A stretch of 64,000 bases of DNA, from positions 1 through 64,000 of the forward strand of contig NZ_CAHP01000012.1 in NCBI RefSeq assembly GCF_000294655.1. Direction: 5' to 3'. The position numbers were made by a program, and so were the translations under genes. Below are positions 19,466 through 52,587 of this stretch, piece by piece (position 1 is the stretch's first letter; every line of letters begins with the position of its first letter). This DNA is from Magnetospirillum molischianum DSM 120 (GTDB lineage: Bacteria > Pseudomonadota > Alphaproteobacteria > Rhodospirillales > Magnetospirillaceae). Below the pieces are notes generated by a model. It saw nothing but the letters and a program-made list of their open reading frames with translations, was not told where the DNA came from and did no database searches.

Positions 19466-22336
19466 ATGGTCAAACGTATGTTGATCGATGCCACGCATCC
19501 GGAGGAGACCCGGGTCGTCGTGGTGAATGGGACGCGTCTCGACGAGCTTGATGTCGAAACCTCCACCAAACGACAACTGAAGGGGAATATCTACCTCGCC
19601 AAGGTCGTTCGTGTCGAACCGTCGCTTCAGGCGGCTTTTGTCGAATATGGCGGCAATCGCCATGGTTTCCTGGCTTTCAGCGAAATCCACCCGGATTATT
19701 TCCAGATCCCGGTTGCCGACCGACAGGCTCTGATCGCGGCCCAGCGCGCCGAGGTGATGCGCGAATCTGCCGCCGATCGTGACGAGGCCCCCCTGGGCGA
19801 CACTCCCGAGGCTGCCGAGGGCGCCGAGGGGAGCGAAGCGTCCGAGAGTGCGGCAATCGAATCCGGTGATGGGGCGGTGACCGATGGTGCCGTGACCGAC
19901 GCCGCCGAATCCGAACGCCAGCACGCCGTCGAGACCGTCGGCGGCGACGACGACGCCGAGTCCGAGCGCCGTCGTGCCAAGCTGCTGCGCAATTACAAGA
20001 TCCAGGAAGTTATCAAGCGCCGCCAGATCATGCTGGTGCAGGTGGTGAAAGAAGAGCGCGGCAATAAAGGCGCTGCTCTGACGACCTATCTGTCGCTGGC
20101 CGGACGCTATTGCGTCCTGATGCCCAATACCGCGCGTGGCGGCGGGGTCTCGCGTAAGATCGTCAGCGCCACTGACCGGCGTCGGCTGAAGGCGATCGCC
20201 AACGAGATCGATGTTCCCGATGGCATGGCGGTGATTATTCGTACCGCCGGGTCCGAGCGGTCTAAGACCGAAATCCGCCGCGATTACGAATATCTAATCC
20301 GCATGTGGGAAAGCGTTCGGGAATTGACCCTAAGCTCGACCGCGCCAGCCCTGGTCTATGAAGAAGCCAGCCTGATCAAGCGTTCGATCCGCGATCTTTA
20401 CTCCCGCGATATCGACGAAGTCCTGGTTGACGGCGATGAAGGTTATCGCCTCGCCAAGGATTACATGCGGATGCTGACTCCCAGCCATGCCAAGAAGGTC
20501 CAGCCCTATAAGGACCCGATCATGCCGCTGTTCCACCGTTATCAGGTGGAAACTCAGCTCGACGCGATGCACAGCCCTGTGGTCCAGCTGAAGTCGGGCG
20601 GCTATATCGTCATTTCGCAGACCGAAGCTCTGGTCGCGATCGACGTCAATTCCGGCCGCGCTACCCGCGAGCGCCATATCGAGGAAACCGCGGTGAAGAC
20701 CAATCTGGAGGCCGCCGACGAGGTGGCGCGCCAGTTGCGTCTGCGCGATCTCGCCGGTTTGATTGTCATCGACTTCATCGACATGGAAGAAGGCCGCAAC
20801 AATCATGCGGTCGAGCGCCGGGTCAAGGAAGCGCTGAAGAATGACCGCGCCCGTATCCAGGTCGGCAAGATCAGCGCCTTCGGCCTGCTCGAACTGTCGC
20901 GCCAGCGCCTGCGTCCGTCCTTACAGGAAACCACCTTTACGCCCTGCCGCCATTGCGGTGGTACGGGTCTGGTGCGCTCGGTCGAATCCGCTGCTGTCCA
21001 TGTGCTGCGCGCCATTGAGGAAGAGGGCATTCGTCGCCGCTCGTCCGAGGTGACGATGTATGTGCCGACCCCGATCGCCCTGTATATCCTTAACCAGAAA
21101 CGTGACGCGCTGGCCTTGATCGAAGCGCGGTACGAGTTCTCGGTGTTGCTGTCCGGCGACGATACGCTGATCCCGCCCGCCTTCCGGATGGATCGAGTCA
21201 AAGCCGAATTCCGTCCGGACGAACCGGCGCGCTCTGTTGTTTCAATGGACGACAACATGGCCGCCCGCATCTCGGCTGAGGAAGCCGAAGAGGTCGTCGA
21301 AGCCGATATCGATGACGTCGAAGAGGACGAGGAAGAGGACGAGATCGAGATCGAGAAGGATGCCGTCGCCGGTTCGGGCGGTGAGGCCCGTACCGAGGAC
21401 GGCGATACCGATGCCAATGGCGCCAAGCGCCGTCGTCGCCGTCGTCGCAATAAGCGCAAGCCTGGTGATGCGCCGCAGGATGGAGCCGCTGAGGCCGCTC
21501 CCACCGTGACCGCCGTTGCTGTTGCCGATGACGAACTCGGCGAGGATGACGCTGAGGGTGAGGCCGAAGCCGAAGGCGACGAGGCCGAGGGAGACGAGGA
21601 ATCCAACCGTCTCGATGCGGGCGACGGCGACCAGCCGCGTAAGCGTCGTCGTGGCCGTCGTGGTGGCCGTCGTCGGCGTCGGCGCGAGGACATGGGGCCG
21701 GAGGGCGTCGAGGGTGAGGCGAGCGAGGATTCGGCCGCCGCTGCCGAAGACGCCGCTCCCCGTCTTGCCGCCGAGGTTGCGCCTCCTGTTGCCGTGATCG
21801 AGATTCCGGTCGAGATCGTGACCTCCGCGGCTCCGATTGCCGTCGAGAGCGTTGTCGAGCCTGTGGTGGAATCTGCTGCCGAGCCGGTTTTGTCTGAGCC
21901 GGTCGCTGTCGCTCCGGCCGATCCTGCTCCCGTCGTCGAAGAACCGGCGGCTGAGGTGGAAAAGCCCAAGCGTCGCCGTGCGCCGCGTAAGAAAGCGGCG
22001 ACCGAAGCCGAAGCGGGGGCTGCTCCCGTTGCCGAGGGTGAGGTTCCGGCGGCTGAGGCGGAAAAGCCCAAGCGTCGCCGTGCTCCGCGTAAAAAGGCGG
22101 TGGCCGAGGCCGAAGTGGCGTCCGCCCCGCTCTTCGAGCTGGCCCCCGTTGCGGACGTCGTTGTCGCTCCGGCTCCTGCGCCTGAAGCGGCTCCGGTTCC
22201 GGCTCCTGTGGTCGAGGTGACTCCGGCTCCGGTTCCTGCGCCCCAGGCGGCTCCCGCTCCTGTGGTCGAGGAGGTTGCCGCACCGCTGCCGGTTAATCCG
22301 CCCCGTCGCGGTTGGTGGAACCGTCTGGTTCCCTGA
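19466..22336 (+). CDS. rne: Ribonuclease E
   Basis: Encodes 956 residues; essential endoribonuclease scaffolding the degradosome. The S1 domain begins GNIYLAKVVRVEPSLQAAFVEYG and is interrupted by a large acidic insertion (about residues 90-175), typical of alphaproteobacteria. The catalytic core shows AIDVNSG and VIDFIDM with the Mg-binding Asp pair, and the zinc-link CRHCGGTG. The C-terminal 370 residues are disordered: acidic runs alternating with Arg-rich blocks, a near-perfect 34-residue tandem repeat, then a Pro/Ala/Val tail ending WWNRLVP. ATG 19466 is 11 nt after GGAG and gives the family start MVKRMLIDATHPEE; ATG 19457 is an alternative. Confidence 0.95.
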   Translation: MVKRMLIDATHPEETRVVVVNGTRLDELDVETSTKRQLKGNIYLAKVVRVEPSLQAAFVEYGGNRHGFLAFSEIHPDYFQIPVADRQALIAAQRAEVMRESAADRDEAPLGDTPEAAEGAEGSEASESAAIESGDGAVTDGAVTDAAESERQHAVETVGGDDDAESERRRAKLLRNYKIQEVIKRRQIMLVQVVKEERGNKGAALTTYLSLAGRYCVLMPNTARGGGVSRKIVSATDRRRLKAIANEIDVPDGMAVIIRTAGSERSKTEIRRDYEYLIRMWESVRELTLSSTAPALVYEEASLIKRSIRDLYSRDIDEVLVDGDEGYRLAKDYMRMLTPSHAKKVQPYKDPIMPLFHRYQVETQLDAMHSPVVQLKSGGYIVISQTEALVAIDVNSGRATRERHIEETAVKTNLEAADEVARQLRLRDLAGLIVIDFIDMEEGRNNHAVERRVKEALKNDRARIQVGKISAFGLLELSRQRLRPSLQETTFTPCRHCGGTGLVRSVESAAVHVLRAIEEEGIRRRSSEVTMYVPTPIALYILNQKRDALALIEARYEFSVLLSGDDTLIPPAFRMDRVKAEFRPDEPARSVVSMDDNMAARISAEEAEEVVEADIDDVEEDEEEDEIEIEKDAVAGSGGEARTEDGDTDANGAKRRRRRRRNKRKPGDAPQDGAAEAAPTVTAVAVADDELGEDDAEGEAEAEGDEAEGDEESNRLDAGDGDQPRKRRRGRRGGRRRRRREDMGPEGVEGEASEDSAAAAEDAAPRLAAEVAPPVAVIEIPVEIVTSAAPIAVESVVEPVVESAAEPVLSEPVAVAPADPAPVVEEPAAEVEKPKRRRAPRKKAATEAEAGAAPVAEGEVPAAEAEKPKRRRAPRKKAVAEAEVASAPLFELAPVADVVVAPAPAPEAAPVPAPVVEVTPAPVPAPQAAPAPVVEEVAAPLPVNPPRRGWWNRLVP
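21944..22147 (+). repeat. Imperfect 102-bp in-frame tandem repeat in the rne tail
   Basis: Two units starting at 21944 and 22046 each encode a 34-residue module with the basic core EKPKRRRAPRKKA. The period is 102 bp. Differences are mostly third-position or conservative changes, so the duplication is old and maintained. Confidence 0.8.
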
Positions 22337-44262: not shown

Positions 44263-44808
44263 ATGACCGAAGACCTGGAAGAAGATTTCGACGATAACGA
44301 CGGTGCCGAAAGCGGTGCGGAGCCATCCCAGAGCAAGGGCGGGCTAAAGAAAATCCTGCTGATCGTCCTGCCCATCCTGCTGCTGGTCGGCGGGGGTGCC
44401 GGGCTGTATTTCTCGGGAATTCTTGACAAGCTGCTGGGCGGGCACAAGGAAGAGGCCTCGACCGAGTCCTCGGCACCGTCGCCGGTTGCCAAGGCGGTGC
44501 AGGCCGCCGCCTTCATGGATCTGCCCGAGATGCTGGTCAACCTCCAGACCTCTGGGCGCAAACAGGCGTTCTTGAAGCTGCGTGTCGCGTTGGAGCTTGA
44601 ATCCGTCGCCGACCAGCCCAGGGTTGAGCAGATGATGCCGCGTATCGTCGATTATTTTCAGGTCTATCTGCGTGAATTGCGGATCGAGGATCTTCAGGGC
44701 GCGTCGGGGATGAACCTGCTGCGTGAAGAATTGCTGACCCGAGTCAATGCCGCGGTAAAGCCGGTTAAGGTCAGCGATGTTCTTTTTAAGGAAATGCTGG
44801 TCCAGTGA
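44263..44808 (+). CDS. fliL: Flagellar basal-body-associated protein FliL
   Basis: Encodes 181 residues. Acidic cytoplasmic N terminus, one membrane helix (about 28-48), Ser/Ala linker, periplasmic stomatin-like FliL domain (about 82-181) with YFQVYLRELRIEDLQGASGMNLLREELLTRVNA. It stabilises the stator around the rotor. Divergent from flgF; 60 bp upstream of fliM. Confidence 0.94.
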   Translation: MTEDLEEDFDDNDGAESGAEPSQSKGGLKKILLIVLPILLLVGGGAGLYFSGILDKLLGGHKEEASTESSAPSPVAKAVQAAAFMDLPEMLVNLQTSGRKQAFLKLRVALELESVADQPRVEQMMPRIVDYFQVYLRELRIEDLQGASGMNLLREELLTRVNAAVKPVKVSDVLFKEMLVQ

Positions 44809-44868
44809 TCGGCAGCCGGTTTTCCGGCGCAAATCGGGTCCACGAGCGGTCGGCGGGATATTCCTCAC

Positions 44869-46053
44869 ATGACAAATCAGGATGAAGGCGGTCAGAGCCG
44901 CAGCGCCGAAGAAGAAGAAGCCCTTATGAAGGAATGGGCGGCCATGGCCGAAGACGGCGGTGGCGAGACTCCGCCAGCGGCCGAGGGCGGTGGCGGCGGC
45001 GATGCTGTGGCCGACGAGTGGGAGGCGATGCTGAGTGCTGGCGGCGGCGGTGAGGGCGAGGGCGATGCCACCGCAGCCGTTCCCCGCGAGGCCACCCGCG
45101 TGCTGAACCAGGATGAAATCGACTCGCTGCTGGGCTTCGACGAAGACGGCGGCGGTGCCGGAGACAAGTCGGGTATCCAGGCGATTCTAAACAGCGCACT
45201 GGTCTCCTACGAACGTCTGCCGATGCTCGAAGTCGTTTTCGACCGGCTGGTGCGCATGATGTCGACCTCGATGCGCAACTTCACCTCGGACAATGTTGAG
45301 GTTTCGCTCGACAATATCCTGTCGTTGCGATTCGGCGATTATCTGAACTCGATCCCCCTGCCGGCGATGCTGGCGGTGTTCAAGGCCGAGGAATGGGACA
45401 ATTTCGGTCTGTTGACCGTCGATTCCTCGTTGATCTACTCGATCGTCGATGTGCTGCTGGGGGGGCGGCGCGGGACTGCCGCGATGCGAATCGAAGGTCG
45501 TCCCTACACCACCATCGAACGCAATCTGGTCGAGCGGATGGTTCATGTCGTGCTGTCCGATTTGTCGGCGGCGTTCGATCCGCTGTCGCCGGTGACGTTC
45601 CGATTTGACCGGCTGGAGACCAATCCGCGCTTCGCCACCATTTCACGCCCCAGTAATGCCGCGATCGTCGCCAAGCTGCGAATCGACATGGAAGATCGCG
45701 GCGGACGTCTGGAATTGCTGCTGCCCTACGCCACCCTCGAACCTGTGCGCGAACTGCTGTTGCAGATGTTCATGGGCGAAAAGTTCGGCCGAGATTCGAT
45801 CTGGGAAACTCACTTGGCCGAAGAATTATGGATGACCGAGGTCGAGCTTGAGGCGGTGTTGGACCAGCAAGTCATGAATTTGCGCGATGTCCTGGCTTGG
45901 AAGCCCGGTTCGAAGCACATGCTGAACGCCACCCCGGACTCTCAAGTCGAAATGCGCTGTGGTCAGGTTGGCATGTTCCGGGGACGGATGGGACGCAAAG
46001 GGCAGCATATCGCCATCCGGGTTGATGAAACCAGCCGGCGTGACAAGGGGTAA
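44869..46053 (+). CDS. fliM: Flagellar motor switch protein FliM
   Basis: Encodes 394 residues. The N-terminal 75 residues are a Gly/Ala/Glu-rich extension before the conserved NQDEIDSLLGFDEDG motif that binds CheY-P; in E. coli this motif is at the very N terminus. Middle CheC-like domain and C-terminal SpoA domain follow normally (TFRFDRLETNPRFA; LNATPDSQVEMRCG). Part of the C-ring; overlaps no neighbour, DUF6468 gene 6 bp downstream. Confidence 0.94.
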   Translation: MTNQDEGGQSRSAEEEEALMKEWAAMAEDGGGETPPAAEGGGGGDAVADEWEAMLSAGGGGEGEGDATAAVPREATRVLNQDEIDSLLGFDEDGGGAGDKSGIQAILNSALVSYERLPMLEVVFDRLVRMMSTSMRNFTSDNVEVSLDNILSLRFGDYLNSIPLPAMLAVFKAEEWDNFGLLTVDSSLIYSIVDVLLGGRRGTAAMRIEGRPYTTIERNLVERMVHVVLSDLSAAFDPLSPVTFRFDRLETNPRFATISRPSNAAIVAKLRIDMEDRGGRLELLLPYATLEPVRELLLQMFMGEKFGRDSIWETHLAEELWMTEVELEAVLDQQVMNLRDVLAWKPGSKHMLNATPDSQVEMRCGQVGMFRGRMGRKGQHIAIRVDETSRRDKG

Positions 46054-46059
46054 AGGTAC

Positions 46060-46617
46060 GTGGACTGGAAAGTACTTCTCGATATTGTTGTTTCGGTGCT
46101 GATGGTTGCCACCATCGCCTATGCCACCCGGCTGAATTCCCGCTTGGCGGCCCTGAGGAAAAACCGTGACGATCTGGCCCGAACCATCGTCGGTTTCAAC
46201 GAAGCCACCTTGCGCGCAGAATCCTCAATCCCCAAGTTGCGCAAAGCGGCTGATGAAGCGGGCCAGTCCCTTCAGGAGCGGGTGGAGAAGGCGCAATCCT
46301 TGCGTGATGACCTCGCCTTTATGATCGAACGGGCCGACACGATGGCCAATCGGCTGGAAAATGCCGTCCGTTCGGCTCGTGTCGAAGGTCCAGCGCGGAG
46401 TGGAGCCGAGACTGCGGCGGCTTCCCGTGCACCAGCCTCGGGTCCGGCTCCATCTCCGGGTCCGGCTCCATCCCTCGCTTCGGGACGCCCGTCCCCGAGT
46501 CGGTCGGCGCAGCAGGCGGCGGTAGCTTCGGCTTCCGCTGCTGCTGAGTACGGGCTTGATGACGAACGGTCGGAAGCCGAGCGCGAGTTGTTGCGCGCGC
46601 TTCAGGCAATGAGGTGA
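46060..46617 (+). CDS. DUF6468 flagellar-locus protein
   Basis: Encodes 185 residues from GTG 46060 (WKVLLDIVVSVLMVATIAYATRLN). One N-terminal membrane helix (about 5-22), a coiled-coil (30-115), a Pro/Ser/Ala-rich linker with a short GPAPS repeat, and a charged C-terminal helix. It fits DUF6468, found between fliM and motE in alphaproteobacteria. Role unknown; position and topology suggest a membrane-anchored motor accessory protein. Confidence 0.8.
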   Translation: MDWKVLLDIVVSVLMVATIAYATRLNSRLAALRKNRDDLARTIVGFNEATLRAESSIPKLRKAADEAGQSLQERVEKAQSLRDDLAFMIERADTMANRLENAVRSARVEGPARSGAETAAASRAPASGPAPSPGPAPSLASGRPSPSRSAQQAAVASASAAAEYGLDDERSEAERELLRALQAMR

Positions 46618-46627
46618 AAACGGTACC

Positions 46628-47383
46628 ATGGCACTGAAAGGCAAATCGAAGGCGACGTCGCAAGGAACCGCACCCAATACCGATGGCGGCGGTGGGCGGG
46701 CTCCGATTGTACGAGTCTTGCCCGTACTGATTTTCTTCGGCGTGCTGATGTTGTCGGTGCGGGTCACCGATTTGTTCATGGGCCTGAGCGGGTTGGGGCT
46801 GGGGGCGGTGTCGGTGGCCGAGTTGCAGGCACAACAGCCTCCTAAGCCTGCTGCTACGCCCGCCACCGCCCCGGCGGCACCCGCGGCACCTGCGGCACCG
46901 GCTACAGCCCCAGCCGCCGCACCTCCCGCTGCGGGCGATGCCGCCGGCGAAGGCCGGACGCAGACCGAGATGGATGTGTTGGAGAAGCTGCGCGAACGCC
47001 GGACCGTGCTCGATTCCCGCGAGCGTGACGTCGAGCGGCGCGAGGAGATGCTGCGCGCCGCCGAAAGTCAGATCGATCGCAAGGTCGCCGAAATGAAGAC
47101 CCTCCAGAGCACGATCGAGGGACTCTTGCGGCAATATAATGACCAGGAAGACAACAAGATGCGGTCTCTGGTCAAAATATATGAGAATATGAAACCCAAG
47201 GAAGCCGCCAAGATCTTCGAACAGCTCGATATGAGTATCCTGCTCGAAGTTGTCGAACGTATGAAGGAGCAGAAGGTCGCTCCGATCATGGCTGAGATGG
47301 ACCCGATGAAGGCAAAAGGCGTAACAGCCGAACTGGCTCAGCGTCGCCAGATGCCGGCACCGAAGGGCGCTTCTGGGGGGTAA
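46628..47383 (+). CDS. motE: MotE-like flagellar motor chaperone (MgtE-N domain)
   Basis: Encodes 251 residues. N-terminal membrane helix (about 28-48), Pro/Ala-rich linker (70-108), coiled-coil (115-165) and a C-terminal MgtE intracellular-N-like domain with KIYENMKPKEAAKIFEQLDMSILLEVVERMKE. MotE is a periplasmic chaperone of MotC in Sinorhizobium; whether it acts the same here is inferred from locus and architecture. ATG 46628. Confidence 0.85.
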   Translation: MALKGKSKATSQGTAPNTDGGGGRAPIVRVLPVLIFFGVLMLSVRVTDLFMGLSGLGLGAVSVAELQAQQPPKPAATPATAPAAPAAPAAPATAPAAAPPAAGDAAGEGRTQTEMDVLEKLRERRTVLDSRERDVERREEMLRAAESQIDRKVAEMKTLQSTIEGLLRQYNDQEDNKMRSLVKIYENMKPKEAAKIFEQLDMSILLEVVERMKEQKVAPIMAEMDPMKAKGVTAELAQRRQMPAPKGASGG

Positions 47384-47502
47384 GTGAACGGGATGTGCGT
47401 AAAAATGGCTTGCGCAGGTGTATGGGCCTATCTTAACTAAGTGTATTCGTTAGTGTGCCGGTTGCTCGGTTTCTGGCGAGTGTGTCTCGAAGGAGCGGAT
47501 GG

Positions 47503-47889
47503 ATGGCTGTCGATAAGAATATGAACGTCCTCATTGTGGACGATTACAAGACGATGTTGCGGATCATTCGGAACCTGCTCAAGCAGCTTGGTTTCAACAA
47601 CGTCGATGAAGCCACCGATGGCGCAATGGCACTCCAGATGCTCCGAGTCGGGACTTATGGTCTGGTTATTTCCGACTGGAACATGGAGCCGATGACTGGG
47701 TTGCAGCTCTTGCGAGAAGTTCGCGCAGATCCCAAGCTGAAGCCCGTTCCCTTTATCATGGTCACCGCCGAATCCAAGTCGGAAAACGTTATTGCCGCCA
47801 AGGAAGCCGGTGTCTCTAACTACATCGTCAAGCCGTTCAACGCCGAAACGCTGAAGAACAAGATGACCAGCGTTCTGGGTGACTTCTGA
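47503..47889 (+). CDS. cheY: Chemotaxis response regulator CheY
   Basis: Encodes 128 residues, receiver domain only. Acidic pocket Asp13/Asp14, phosphorylation site Asp58 (ISDWNMEP), Thr in MVTAES and Lys in IVKPF. The sequence (MNVLIVDDYKTMLRIIRNLLKQLGFNNVDEATDG) matches the CheY that pairs with CheZ. ATG 47503 lies 7 nt after AGGAG; a longer in-frame reading to 47455 is less likely. It is followed 20 bp later by cheZ. Confidence 0.95.
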   Translation: MAVDKNMNVLIVDDYKTMLRIIRNLLKQLGFNNVDEATDGAMALQMLRVGTYGLVISDWNMEPMTGLQLLREVRADPKLKPVPFIMVTAESKSENVIAAKEAGVSNYIVKPFNAETLKNKMTSVLGDF

Positions 47890-47909
47890 CGGTAGAGGGA
47901 GGTCGCGTC

Positions 47910-48557
47910 ATGTCAAGCAAGGGCGTTGACCGCGACCTTGAGTTGCGTCTTGAGGAGATCCGCCGTGAGCACGGCGACACCGTTCACGTTGATCAGATCG
48001 GCGAGGTGGTTCGCTCTCTCCTCGACTCCATCGCAGGCGATATCAGTGCCGGGGATCTCCGCCTCTATCGTGAGGTCGAGTCTCTGGCGCAGTACATCCA
48101 CGCCGCGCGAGAGGAAATCGCCGCCCTGCGTCCCGGCGACATTAAGCACCGCTTCATCGCGTCCGCCACCGACGAACTTGACGCCATCGTCGGGGCGACC
48201 GAGGCAGCTACCAACGAGATCATGGATGCCGCCGAGAGTTTGGAAACGGTGACCTCCTCTCTTGAGCCTGGACCCGCCGAGGCGCTGGCTGATATCACGA
48301 CCCGCATCTACGAGGCCTGCACCTTCCAAGACATTACCGGTCAGAGAATAACCAAGGTGGTCAAGGCTCTGAAGGATATCGAAGACCGGGTCGAGGGGTT
48401 GGTTCGGATGTTTGGCGCCGAGTACGAAAAAGACGCCGGAACTAAGGATAAGCCCGAGGCGCCACCGAGCGATCAGGATCTCCTCAACGGCCCTCAGCTT
48501 CCCGCCGCCGCCGCTAATCAGGCCGATATCGACGCGCTGCTGGCCAGTTTCGACTAG
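47910..48557 (+). CDS. cheZ: CheY-P phosphatase CheZ
   Basis: Encodes 215 residues. A long helical hairpin (about 30-160) contains the catalytic motif CTFQDITGQRITKVV with Gln140, and the C-terminal DIDALLASFD tail is the CheY-binding peptide. CheZ is common in gamma- and beta-proteobacteria and less so in alphaproteobacteria. Encoded next to cheY; the frameshifted envelope gene begins 6 bp after its stop. Confidence 0.93.
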   Translation: MSSKGVDRDLELRLEEIRREHGDTVHVDQIGEVVRSLLDSIAGDISAGDLRLYREVESLAQYIHAAREEIAALRPGDIKHRFIASATDELDAIVGATEAATNEIMDAAESLETVTSSLEPGPAEALADITTRIYEACTFQDITGQRITKVVKALKDIEDRVEGLVRMFGAEYEKDAGTKDKPEAPPSDQDLLNGPQLPAAAANQADIDALLASFD

Positions 48558-48563
48558 TCGAAC

Positions 48564-50354
48564 ATGGCGGATTCGCCCCGATCGACCTTGCCCCTGCGGT
48601 TTTTCCGGATGCGGTGGGGCCTCCTTGCGCTTGCGATTGTCGCGGCGGTGCCTGGTCTTGCCTTGGCTCAGGCTTCATCGCCGTCGCCGCGCGCTGCCGC
48701 TCATGACGGCTATGGCCGCATGGTGTTCGATTGGAATAGTACGGTCGGCTTTACCGCCGAGCAGGCCGACGGGCAACTGGTGCTTCGGTTCGACAAGCCG
48801 ATCGTCGGTGACCCGAAGGCCGTGGTCAAGCCGCTGTCCCGCTATCTGAAAGGGGTTCGCCTTAGCCCCGACCGCACCGTCGCCACCTTTCCACTGACCG
48901 GGCCAGTCCAGATCAAGACGTCACGTAGCGGTAACGCGGTTGTGATCGATCTCAGTGAGGACAAAACGCCGCCCGCCGCCACTCCACCCGCCGCCCGACC
49001 TGTCGCCGCCACCGCGACGATTGCGCAGGCAGCGGCTCCAACTTCGGCTCCAGCCGTTCCCGCCATCGAACTGATGGTGAGGGGGGGCGAACATACCGGC
49101 TTTAACCGTCTGGTGTTCGATTGGCCCAAGCCCGTGGGGTATACGGTCGAGGAGACCGGGGACAAGGTTACGGTTGCCTTCGACCGTCCGGCCAACCTTA
49201 ACGCCACCTCGCTCCGTGCGTCATTGCCGCCCGATGTTGGCTTTCTTGAGGCTCGTCCGGCCGGAAAGGGCACGGCGGTGGTGTTATCGCTGCCGCAAGG
49301 CATGCGTGTCCGTCATTTCACCAGCGGTCCCCGTGTTGCGCTCGATCTCGTCCGCGCCGCCGGTACAGCGCCGCCGCCGCGCGCCAATGGCGCGCCGCCG
49401 CCGCCGCTGGCTCCCGCGCCGGGCAGCACCGATCAGCCTCCAGCGCTTAAACCTCTTGCTCCCGCCGCGCCGGCGCCGCTCGCCAGTCTGGATGAGTCGG
49501 CGGTGCCGCAATCTTCCGCCCCGGTGGGGAAGATGGTCAGTCTCGGTTTTGCTTTCGACAAGCCGACTGGTGCAGCCGTGTTCCGCCGTGGCGGTTGGCT
49601 CTGGGCCGTGTTCGACATCAAGACGGAGATCGACACCAAGCTGTTGAAGCGCACCGGCGGCGATGTGGTCCAGCATGTTGAACAGATACAGGGAGGGAAG
49701 GGGACGGCGGTGCGGATGCTGACCTCGCCGGGCTTCAATCCTTCTGTCCGCAAAGAGGGGCAATTGTGGGTGCTCGATATCCACGAGCAGCCGCTTTTGC
49801 CCAAAACCGCCGCCGCTGTATCGGCCCAGATGGATTTCCAGGATCGCGGACGGTTGGTGATTGCCGCCGCCGATGGTTCTCCGGCGATGGCGGTGCGCGA
49901 TCCCGAGGTTGGCGATATCATCCAGGTGGTAACGGTGCCGACGATTGGTCTGGGCGTTCGCGCCGGGCGTGACTATCCTGGCGTCGAGTTGTTGACTTCG
50001 GCCCAGGGCGTCGCGGCTGTGGGGCGTGCCGATGGGGTGCGGCTCGATCCGTCGAAGTCCCAGGTCGAGGTGGCAATGCCTGGTGGGCTGTATTTGACCC
50101 AGCCACCGCCGCCGCCGCCCGAAGCCTCTGGGGTCGAGACTCCGGTGGCCGATCCTGAAGGGCCACAAGAGACCGGGCCGCTCGACATTTCAAAATGGAT
50201 GCGGGGCGGCAACGATACCTTTGTTGCCGATCGCCGCAAGCTGTTGCAGCGGATGACGACTCGACATTTCAAAATGGATGCGGGGCGGCAACGATACCTT
50301 TGTTGCCGATCGCCGCAAGCTGTTGCAGCGGATGACGACGTTGCGACCCAATGA
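48564..50354 (+). CDS. 5' part of the split gene: AMIN-like domain protein
   Basis: Encodes 596 residues as read. A signal sequence ends near ALAQ (residue 36). Similar beta-rich units begin YGRMVFDWNSTVGF (about 50) and FNRLVFDWPKPVGY (about 177), with a third related segment near 330 (VSLGFAFDKPTGAAVF). Pro/Ala linkers separate them. The last authentic residues are RKLLQRMTT; about 22 frameshifted residues follow. Confidence 0.75.
   Translation: MADSPRSTLPLRFFRMRWGLLALAIVAAVPGLALAQASSPSPRAAAHDGYGRMVFDWNSTVGFTAEQADGQLVLRFDKPIVGDPKAVVKPLSRYLKGVRLSPDRTVATFPLTGPVQIKTSRSGNAVVIDLSEDKTPPAATPPAARPVAATATIAQAAAPTSAPAVPAIELMVRGGEHTGFNRLVFDWPKPVGYTVEETGDKVTVAFDRPANLNATSLRASLPPDVGFLEARPAGKGTAVVLSLPQGMRVRHFTSGPRVALDLVRAAGTAPPPRANGAPPPPLAPAPGSTDQPPALKPLAPAAPAPLASLDESAVPQSSAPVGKMVSLGFAFDKPTGAAVFRRGGWLWAVFDIKTEIDTKLLKRTGGDVVQHVEQIQGGKGTAVRMLTSPGFNPSVRKEGQLWVLDIHEQPLLPKTAAAVSAQMDFQDRGRLVIAAADGSPAMAVRDPEVGDIIQVVTVPTIGLGVRAGRDYPGVELLTSAQGVAAVGRADGVRLDPSKSQVEVAMPGGLYLTQPPPPPPEASGVETPVADPEGPQETGPLDISKWMRGGNDTFVADRRKLLQRMTTRHFKMDAGRQRYLCCRSPQAVAADDDVATQ
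50181..50338 (+). repeat. Exact 79-bp tandem duplication (two copies)
   Basis: Copies at 50181-50259 and 50260-50338 are identical at every base. The first base after each copy is also C; the sequences then diverge (T versus G). Its length is not a multiple of three, so one extra copy shifts the frame; one or four copies in total would keep it open. Confidence 0.97.
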
Positions 50355-51963
50355 CCGCAATCTCCAGCGGTTGGAAATCGCCCGTCACTACCTTGCCAAC
50401 GGTTTTGCTCCCGAGGCGTTAGGTGAATTGCGCCTTTTGGCCGCCGCCGACCCGGCGATCGTCGAGACTCCGACCTTCCGCGCAACGCGGGGTGCCGCGA
50501 ACTTCCTGGCACGTCACGATGCCGAGGCAATTGCCGACCTGTCGCTCCCCGCCTTGAAGGACGATCCTCGCGTGCAGTTGTTTTTGGCGGCGGCAATGGC
50601 CCGCTCCCAGCCCGATCCGGCACGCCAAGCTCTGACACTGCGCCTTGCCCCCGAGGAGATCAAGGGCTGGCCGCGCACGCTTCGGATGGAACTGGGCGAG
50701 GTTGCCGCCCGCACCGTGGCCGGGGCTGGCGACGGACGCGGTGCCAACCGGATCATCGACGCGATGATGGGGCCGGGATTGCAGCGCCGCGATGTCGGGC
50801 GATTGTCCTATTTGGGCGGTCTGGCCTCGGTCGCGGGTAAGCAGTACGAGCAGGCGATCACCCGCTTCCGCGATGCCGAGGCCAGCGATAGCCGTCCTGA
50901 TCGTGCCTATGCCACGCGCGATCGGATCGAGTTGATGTTGAAGCTGGGCAAGATCACCCCGCTAGAGGCGATTGCCGAACTGGAAAAGATGCGCTTTGCG
51001 TGGCGCGGCGAGGATTTTGAATTCCAGTTGATGAAGCGGATCAGCCAGCTTCAGGTTGAGGCCAAGCGCTATGGCGAGGGATTGCGCAGCATGCATACGC
51101 TTGCCGCCAATTATCCCGATCATCCCGACATCCCCAAAGTGATGGAGATGATGAGCGAGGCGTTCACCCGCCTGTTTCTTGACGGCGAGGCCGATAAACT
51201 GCCGCCGGTTACCGCCATTGGTCTTTATGACGAGTTCCAGGAACTGACGCCGCCGGGGGAAAAGGGCGACGAGATGATCCGTCGTCTGGCCGATCGTCTG
51301 GCCTCGGTCGATTTGCTGGAGCGTGCGGGCGATCTGTTGCGCCATCAGGTCGAGTTCCGCCTGTCCGGGCTGGACAAGACGCGGGTGGGAACGCGTCTGG
51401 CCTTCCTCAACCTGTCCGACCGCAAGCCCGGTCTGGCCCTGGAGGCGCTCGATTTGAGTGAGGGGCCGGATATTCCGACCGATCTGGCGGCGCAGCGTCG
51501 GTATCTCCGGGTGCAGGCTCTTGACGATCTTGGCCGCTCGGCCGAGGCGCTGGCCCTCATCATCAACGACCAGAGTGAGGAAGCCCGCCGCCTCCGTGGC
51601 GAGATCAATTGGCGTCTGAAAAAATGGCCCGAGGCGGTCGCCGCGATGGAAAGCACGATCGAGAGACCGTTCGGCAACCGTCCGCTTGATCCGAAAATGG
51701 CTCGTCGCGTGCTCGATACCGCCACCGCGATGACGCTCGGACATGACGAACGCGGGTTGGCCCGGTTGCGCCGCACCTTTGGCGATCTGATGGCCAAGAC
51801 CGATCTACGCGAGGCGTTCGACTTGCTGACCAGCGAGCCGGAACGCGGTATTGCCGATTACCGCCGCATTGGTGACAAGGTTAAGCAGGTCGAGGAATTC
51901 CAGACCTTCATGGGCGATTGGAAAAACCGGGTGAAGGCAGAGGGCCTGTCCTCGATGAATTAG
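50278..51963 (+). CDS. 3' part of the split gene: TPR-like helical protein
   Basis: Encodes 561 residues if initiated at ATG 50278 inside the second repeat copy. The body is helical with TPR-like units (YLGGLASVAGKQYEQAITRFRDAEA; YLRVQALDDLGRSAEALALI). No signal peptide and no ribosome-binding site precede this ATG, so it is probably not expressed independently unless the frame is restored. Confidence 0.65.
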   Translation: MRGGNDTFVADRRKLLQRMTTLRPNDRNLQRLEIARHYLANGFAPEALGELRLLAAADPAIVETPTFRATRGAANFLARHDAEAIADLSLPALKDDPRVQLFLAAAMARSQPDPARQALTLRLAPEEIKGWPRTLRMELGEVAARTVAGAGDGRGANRIIDAMMGPGLQRRDVGRLSYLGGLASVAGKQYEQAITRFRDAEASDSRPDRAYATRDRIELMLKLGKITPLEAIAELEKMRFAWRGEDFEFQLMKRISQLQVEAKRYGEGLRSMHTLAANYPDHPDIPKVMEMMSEAFTRLFLDGEADKLPPVTAIGLYDEFQELTPPGEKGDEMIRRLADRLASVDLLERAGDLLRHQVEFRLSGLDKTRVGTRLAFLNLSDRKPGLALEALDLSEGPDIPTDLAAQRRYLRVQALDDLGRSAEALALIINDQSEEARRLRGEINWRLKKWPEAVAAMESTIERPFGNRPLDPKMARRVLDTATAMTLGHDERGLARLRRTFGDLMAKTDLREAFDLLTSEPERGIADYRRIGDKVKQVEEFQTFMGDWKNRVKAEGLSSMN

Positions 51964-51972
51964 GGGGGAACG

Positions 51973-52587
51973 ATGTCCCGATATGCTGGCGTCATCGCCT
52001 TGGTGCTGCTGCTGTCTGGCTGTGGTTCCGCCTTGCCTCCGCCCGAGGCGGTTCGGCTCGATCCGGTGCCGGGGGTGTCGCCACCCCTGTCGGCACGGGT
52101 GATGATCTTTGCCGGTCAGGGCGATCTTGACCGGAAATTGCGGTTGCAGGTCACCCGACTTCATAGCGAGGATGGCACCGTGAAGGACGGCGCGGCACTG
52201 GCTTCTGCCGCCCGAACGATGTTGTCGAAGGCGTTTTCTCGGGTGGAAATCAACGACCCTTCGATCCGGCCCCAGATTGTGGTCCGTCTGTACGGCAAGG
52301 GGATGTGGTCGAAGCCGGATACGCAACTGGTGGTCGGCTGTGGCATCGATGTCTTTACCGCCGATGGGTTCCCGCTTGGCAATTTCGGCAATCGGTTCGA
52401 GGTCGGGAGCGGTGACTATGAAAGCACCCTGACCGCGAGCTATGCCCAATGCCTGAAACGTCCCGTCGAGCAGTTCCTGGCTTCGTCGGGGTTGGCTCGG
52501 CTGGCTGCCACTGGATTCCGCGATCCGCCTCCGGTGGCGGTTGAACGCTGGATGCAAACCCTGGGGCCGATTCCGTCACCGCGCTGA
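51973..52587 (+). CDS. Hypothetical lipoprotein
   Basis: Encodes 204 residues with a lipoprotein signal (lipobox LLSGC near residues 14-18). The mature part has a mixed alpha/beta pattern with LDRKLRLQVTRLHSEDG and PQIVVRLYGKGMWS; two extra Cys pairs could form disulfides. ATG 51973 follows GGGGGGAA. Family not recognised. It begins 9 bp after the split gene, so they are probably co-transcribed. Confidence 0.75.
   Translation: MSRYAGVIALVLLLSGCGSALPPPEAVRLDPVPGVSPPLSARVMIFAGQGDLDRKLRLQVTRLHSEDGTVKDGAALASAARTMLSKAFSRVEINDPSIRPQIVVRLYGKGMWSKPDTQLVVGCGIDVFTADGFPLGNFGNRFEVGSGDYESTLTASYAQCLKRPVEQFLASSGLARLAATGFRDPPPVAVERWMQTLGPIPSPR

Follow-up and report, generated by a model that had tools for sequence, protein, structure and literature searches.

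Background

MotK of Cereibacter sphaeroides (Fla2) has been described as a periplasmic protein of 652 aa with a Sec-type signal, one AMIN-like beta domain at the N-terminus, a low-complexity linker and a TPR-like, helical remainder; its gene belongs to a fliL-pflI-motE-motA-motK cluster, and the motK mutant produced filaments and did not swim (PMC10954123). PflA of Campylobacter jejuni has a comparable layout of a beta-sandwich (AMIN-like in PMC11870540), a linker and a TPR superhelix (PMC12222027), and works together with FlgY, the MotE homologue (PMC12222027, PMC11870540). MotE was linked with MotC/MotK and FlgY with PflA in a review that also describes how the MgtE_N domain serves for finding MotE (PMC13023049). 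CC_2058 of Caulobacter crescentus is, by description, AMIN-like as well as PflA-like and adjoins the motE homologue CC_2059 (PMC10954123, PMC13023049). Tandem duplications inside single genes have been described in other bacteria. In Xenorhabdus nematophila tandem duplications of 26-116 bp accounted for three lrp mutations, and the variants were concluded to be plain mutants (PMC6786866). In pneumococcal capsule genes a tandem duplication within an ORF can be lost again (Waite 2001, 2003, via PMC4022640).

The window, i.e., the whole stretch of 64,000 nucleotides analysed here, originates from a phototroph related to Magnetospirillum (Phaeospirillum) fulvum. On the contigs C1, C13 and C47 (L127, L131, L138-L140), six LH2-type beta/alpha gene pairs mark the organism as phototrophic. 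One pair was close, but not identical, to the PDB chains 7tuw_N and 7tuw_B (beta) and 7tuw_M and 1lgh_A (alpha), and the five further pairs differed by eye from the 7tuw and 1lgh chains; an assignment to P. molischianum, considered on the basis of these pairs, was set aside. A gene divided by a 79-bp tandem duplication resembles motK in its predicted signal, AMIN-like beta structure, linker and TPR-type helical part, and in its location within a fliL-pflI-motE type of cluster (PMC10954123). This likeness is one of architecture and gene context, drawn from the description of MotK. MotK has a single AMIN-like region, whereas in five named records the window gene has homologues of 1109-1145 aa with more beta structure.

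Results

A 79-bp tandem duplication divides one gene in the assembled sequence

A unit of 79 bp was present twice, back to back, in a gene downstream of cheZ (Table 1). The copies are identical in 79 of 79 positions (50181-50338), an exact match that is far beyond expectation for a chance origin. The periodic run comprises 80 bases, hence the boundaries of the duplication float by 1 base, and its ends have 1 bp in common. Tandem Repeats Finder reported 8 tandem arrays in the window, among them the 79-bp array (100 % match, score 318) as the only one with a period above 30 and the only one with a match of 100 %. One gene is thereby divided into a 5' ORF of 596 aa and a 3' ORF of 561 aa. The 5' ORF stops early, as 79 cannot be divided by three; its TGA (50352-50354) is located 16 bp past the repeat, and the frame of the 3' ORF is open from 50257. 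By arithmetic, the gene with one copy would have 51963-48564+1-79 = 3321 bases. A sequence-only reading of the window had described two identical adjacent copies, a stop 16 bp behind them and a position after cheZ (PF04344, 6 bp from the split gene), all of which were recovered here, and its length of about 1106 codons after removal of one copy is consistent with the calculated figure.

Table 1. Coordinates of the divided gene, the duplicated unit and the neighbouring genes in the window
Feature	Position	Strand	Remarks
fliL	44263..44808	+	PF03748
fliM	44869..46053	+	PF02154
DUF6468 gene	46060..46617	+	PF20072; pflI position in published fliL clusters, equated by position only
motE-like gene (E-ring protein)	46628..47383	+	PF03448 MgtE_N, E 3e-6
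Single-domain response regulator (CheY-like)	47455..47889	+	PF00072
cheZ	47910..48557	+	PF04344
5' ORF, 596 aa	48564..50354	+	N-terminal hydrophobic signal (by eye), AMIN-like beta domains, linker, aberrant tail from ~50259
Copy 1 of the 79-bp unit	50181..50259	+	Residues 563-588 of the intact M. fulvum protein (L035 5983-6061)
Copy 2 of the 79-bp unit	50260..50338	+	Identical to copy 1
3' ORF, 561 aa	50278..51963	+	TPR-type helical domain; no signal sequence seen
204-aa protein	51973..52587	+	Lipoprotein-like by eye; starts 9 bp after the split gene

Identity of the divided gene

The split gene is probably a motK/CC_2058-type, MotE-linked AMIN-TPR gene of the alphaproteobacterial fliL-fliM-DUF6468-motE cluster, and its product probably a MotK/PflA-like flagellar motor (spoke) protein. 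The 5' ORF carried an N-terminal match to the AMIN-like family PF24837 (E 7e-7, 29.8 bits at a cut-off of 27), the linker is followed by a C-terminal TPR superhelix (all-helical model, TPR chains fill the fold lists) and motE is located nearby in the fliL cluster, all as in the MotK/PflA type. The 3' ORF matched TPR_16 with an E of 0.0025, below the Pfam cut-off, and its model alone was all helical with a pLDDT of 76. A model of the intact M. fulvum protein (5 sequences, mean pLDDT 56) presented a hydrophobic helix at residues 9-28, beta domains to ~510, a poorly predicted linker and helices from 565 to 1123; the 79-bp unit encodes the start of the helical part in this model. Proteins of the MotK/PflA type are expected to be periplasmic, to bind MotE and MotB and to be required for rotation; of this, both the sequence and the model displayed only a hydrophobic helix at the N-terminus.

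Foldseek placed the PDB chain 9hmf_K, from the periplasmic motor scaffold of Campylobacter, in the top row for the full-length model with an E of 4e-7, yet the superposition had an rmsd of 50 and TM scores of 0.10/0.14, so that the resemblance to PflA is a remote fold match of low confidence. Chain K of 9hmf we infer to be PflA from the chain length. With the TPR half alone, 9hmf_K was found at rank 12 among generic TPR proteins and was not singled out; Foldseek was therefore rejected as proof of PflA homology, and the match of the model may be taken as a lead, not as proof. A VIA-align run with the full model did not have 9hmf among its best 50 rows, which is no evidence either way, and a PDB sequence search with the protein yielded no match up to an E of 1.

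The gene context is stronger evidence for the identity than the fold match. Twenty genomes of 20 other families were taken from the 81 other matching genomes of the class (18 without motE in the short-flank scan, one with motE, one outside that scan), and up to 8 kb upstream of the gene were read. motE was present in 19 of the 20, fliM in 18, the DUF6468 gene in 17, fliL in 16, a CheY-like gene in 13 and cheZ in 10. As a control, 35 stretches from the own genome, each of 8 kb, were scanned; motE, fliL, fliM, DUF6468 and cheZ were detected in none of them, CheY-like genes in five. Short flanks of ~1.5 kb at 29 class-level loci, one of the same family and the rest of other families, included motE in eight cases. 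At the 29 loci from the search in 60 genomes the flank was inside the 5' half of the gene, and neither motE nor cheZ was found in it. The fliL-fliM-DUF6468-motE-(cheY-cheZ)-AMIN/TPR neighbourhood of window positions 44263-51963 is largely kept across many alphaproteobacterial families. The gene for the 204-aa protein, which had no Pfam match up to an E of 0.1, was observed behind the gene in 15 of 16 same-genus loci and in none of 13 other-genus loci (~1.5 kb flank). The sequence-only reading had called the product an envelope/TPR protein; this label can be narrowed to that of a MotK/PflA-like flagellar motor protein, as a probable identity.

The locus in related genomes

The 3' half was matched in 55 of the 60 genomes searched, the own genome included. 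Each of the 16 further genomes of the genus possessed it, 14 of them in a single frame of at least 1126 aa; the remaining two had frames of 767 and 818 aa running into a contig end. Outside the genus 38 genomes matched, 29 with frames of at least 1102 aa. Eight of the nine shorter frames were fragments or ran off contig ends, the ninth (G053, of another family) had a frame break in the beta/AMIN part with matches in frames 1 and 3 (at ~930-1145 of L195, G053:C82:5500-9100). A tandem repeat was not found at this break, where the longest periodic run was 11; an error or a further null allele could lie behind it. The statement that no relative has a split gene thus fails outside the genus, and a break in the AMIN-TPR gene is not unique to the present genome. 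The class-level search gave a match in 82 of 142 genomes, the own genome included; among the rows listed, a stop inside the gene was reported only for the own genome and for one side piece of G061. A second homologue was not found in a search of the own contigs, masked stretches of which could hide one.

Amino acid identity in the 3' half was 96 % for M. fulvum MGU-K5 and DSM 13234. In blastn, window positions 49054-50259 aligned to L035 4826-6061, and positions from 50260 onward to L035 from 5983. For both M. fulvum strains (L035 and L032) the alignment broke exactly at 50259/50260 with an overlap of 79 bases in the target, hence both records have a single copy of the unit. Exact periodic runs of more than 26 bases (periods 15-299) occurred in none of 34 relative loci, i.e., 29 genome loci and five named records that duplicate five of those 29. 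This comparison with close relatives had been proposed with the sequence-only reading, together with the expectation that two separate genes in relatives would speak against it; such a pair was absent from the genomes of the genus, in which 14 of 16 had the single frame and two were cut by a contig end.

Age of the duplication and selection on both halves

For the 5' half, dN/dS values of 0.139, 0.118 and 0.234 were obtained in comparison to L035, L032 and L033; the values for the 3' half were 0.036, 0.042 and 0.152. Both halves are under purifying selection, therefore the duplication is recent or not real. Values of at most 0.234 also agree with the earlier statement that both halves are free of decay. 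The 79-bp unit differed from L035 and L032 in 12 and 13 of 79 sites, respectively, and the two copies did not differ from each other; the duplication is therefore much younger than the split from M. fulvum. About a dozen differences between the copies would be expected for a duplication as old as that split. A rough Poisson estimate places its age at no more than ~1/4 of the M. fulvum split, barring gene conversion. A young age fits a recent mutation and an artefact equally. In ~12.3 kb aligned to the first 100 kb of a M. fulvum contig, this was the sole frame break that could be placed in a gene on the sense strand. Two frames were also matched by three further reference ORFs; by eye these were antisense or crossed gene borders.

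Tandem repeats and contig ends in the assembly

The assembly is a draft of 61 contigs and 3,805,617 bases with scattered single N bases. A scan of 83 contig ends, with 20 contigs wholly or largely N-masked, revealed 16 pairs of ends that overlap exactly by 15-490 bases and had not been merged, 14 of the 16 by at least 82 bases; C57/C58 and C31/C32 are examples. The number 79 is an assembly k-mer size. An artefact of an assembler with fixed k was considered and is unsupported, as none of the 16 exact overlaps has a length of 79.

Tandem duplications were sampled in 738,125 non-N bases including the window, which present ~19 % of the genome and leave ~81 % outside the sample. Two exact tandem duplications with a period of at least 60 were detected, the 79-bp unit and an in-frame 84-bp coiled-coil unit. 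With one other such duplication, and that in frame, joins of this kind are not frequent in the sampled part of the assembly; the idea of many similar mis-joins was dropped, as none were seen in the sample. The in-frame unit belongs to a 42/84-bp array (L063 6122-6506) in a protein of 1410 aa, glycosyltransferase/methyltransferase-like by eye, and two neighbouring copies are identical over 101 bases. A looser scan with Tandem Repeats Finder (period of at least 30) yielded repeats of the in-frame size of 30-33 bp at window positions 22166-22260 and at L045 1576-1657 and 12930-12986. A 41-bp tandem repeat of 95 % match was located at L093 2101-2188 in AT-rich DNA, taken as mostly non-coding, on a contig with plasmid- or mobile-element-like ORFs (by eye).

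Discussion

Origin of the duplication

Two explanations are the likeliest, and the weights given to them are judgements. A strain-private, spontaneous and recent tandem duplication of 79 bp, inactivating the single MotK/PflA-like gene of the genome, appears to us slightly better than an even chance. An error of assembly or consensus, in which read groups or contigs with an overlap of 79 bases were abutted instead of merged and the gene is intact in the organism, is a serious competitor held at clearly less than even. The draft state with its scattered N bases and unmerged contig-end overlaps makes a mis-join possible, and the artefact that the sequence-only reading had allowed for is supported as a possibility. 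The complete identity of the copies, the ends with 1 bp in common, the purifying selection on both halves and the single frame in 14 of 14 same-genus genomes whose contig shows the gene whole likewise point in this direction. The shared ends of 1 bp are contrary to the prediction of classical slippage, and an unmerged overlap fits them just as well. Against an error, most of the overlapping contig ends pair with more than one other end, like mobile repeats, and the overlaps have no fixed length such as 79; the 79-bp case was the sole out-of-frame exact duplication with a period of at least 60 in the sampled bases. The unit forms a hairpin in its own genome, with a z of -3.04 in comparison to shuffles; the four relatives folded had -1.52, -0.09, -0.25 and 0.47. 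This hairpin is a plausible source of polymerase trouble and could have promoted a real duplication or disturbed the reads, in the latter case perhaps causing the error. The claim of the sequence-only reading that an out-of-frame duplication of recent date splits one gene is supported. For a real mutation, the lrp variants of Xenorhabdus are a parallel as loss-of-function tandem duplications within one gene in culture; they differ in gene and organism, and no genetic reversion was seen there (PMC6786866).

Two further readings of a real duplication were weighed. Frame-breaking tandem copies inside a motility gene, RecA-family genes in the genome and the precedent of the pneumococcal capsule genes would suit evolved phase variation, a contingency locus that toggles the motor function by gain and loss of the unit; we regard it as very improbable. 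A dedicated switch should leave the repeat, or at least repeat-prone ends, in the relatives; the repeat was in none of the 34 relative loci, the ends share 1 bp and the hairpin was unmatched in the four relatives folded. The candidate ON/OFF switch of the sequence-only reading is thereby unsupported. In its strongest form, which deserves very little credence, the two-copy gene would be a real, often-reverting OFF state of the spoke protein; duplication and loss at a hairpin-bearing site on the linker/TPR boundary would then let the free-living phototroph keep paralysed and swimming cells together. For the mutations in Xenorhabdus lrp, similar in kind, phase variation was rejected as the explanation (PMC6786866), and in the pneumococcal case phase variation was measured, according to the titles of the papers (Waite 2001, 2003, via PMC4022640), in contrast to the present locus, which is known from sequence alone. 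Reversibility is common to any tandem duplication and is no evidence of function. A gene fission, with a split tolerated at the beta/AMIN-TPR boundary and both parts made and cooperating, is of all readings the least probable. The position of the unit at the end of the low-confidence linker and the start of the helical domain would suit it, and re-initiation is conceivable at ATG 50278 or 50332, close to the stop of the 5' ORF. No Shine-Dalgarno-like motif was found at ATG 50278 (score 0) and one of 3 bases at 50332 (score 3). Little weight can be given to the weak ribosome-binding site of the 3' ORF, because the own start of the gene scored 0 and fliL and fliM 3 each in the same scan. Neither this point nor the frame break in G053 changes the weights given above, as both are irrelevant to the question of a real repeat or a switch. 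The 3' product lacks an export signal, though its domain is expected to be periplasmic, and the split was present in none of the same-genus genomes.

Consequences for the motor and for the annotation

In case of a real duplication, the flagellum is predicted to be paralysed and the allele to be revertible. The 5' product would consist of the AMIN part, exported and ending in a wrong tail; the TPR part, should it be produced at all, would start at an internal ATG and be retained in the cytoplasm, lacking an export signal. The stator/E-ring scaffold would then fail. Slippage or recombination between the tandem copies would remove one of them and so restore the gene; such an allele would be unstable. 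This revertibility is a by-product of the type of mutation, not an evolved switch. Among other motility families of the own genome, open frames were found for the flhA family (708 aa), the best flagellin match (286 aa) and four MotA/ExbB matches, thus there is no sign of a wider motility decay in what was examined. Among the literature matches listed, nothing relevant concerned motility loss in Phaeospirillum or a motK duplication.

Overall, the finding is either an event of a common type, affecting a gene that is of some interest, or an error of the assembly. If it is an artefact, the gene annotation needs correcting. If it is real, the strain would offer an unstable null allele, ready for use, of a motor component on which few studies exist, and the need of the MotK/PflA-like protein of this group for rotation could be tested simply. 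For the class, the AMIN-TPR gene was located behind fliL-fliM-DUF6468-motE in the 20 families read, with motE itself present in 19; this is in line with the published view of a widespread E-ring with spokes.
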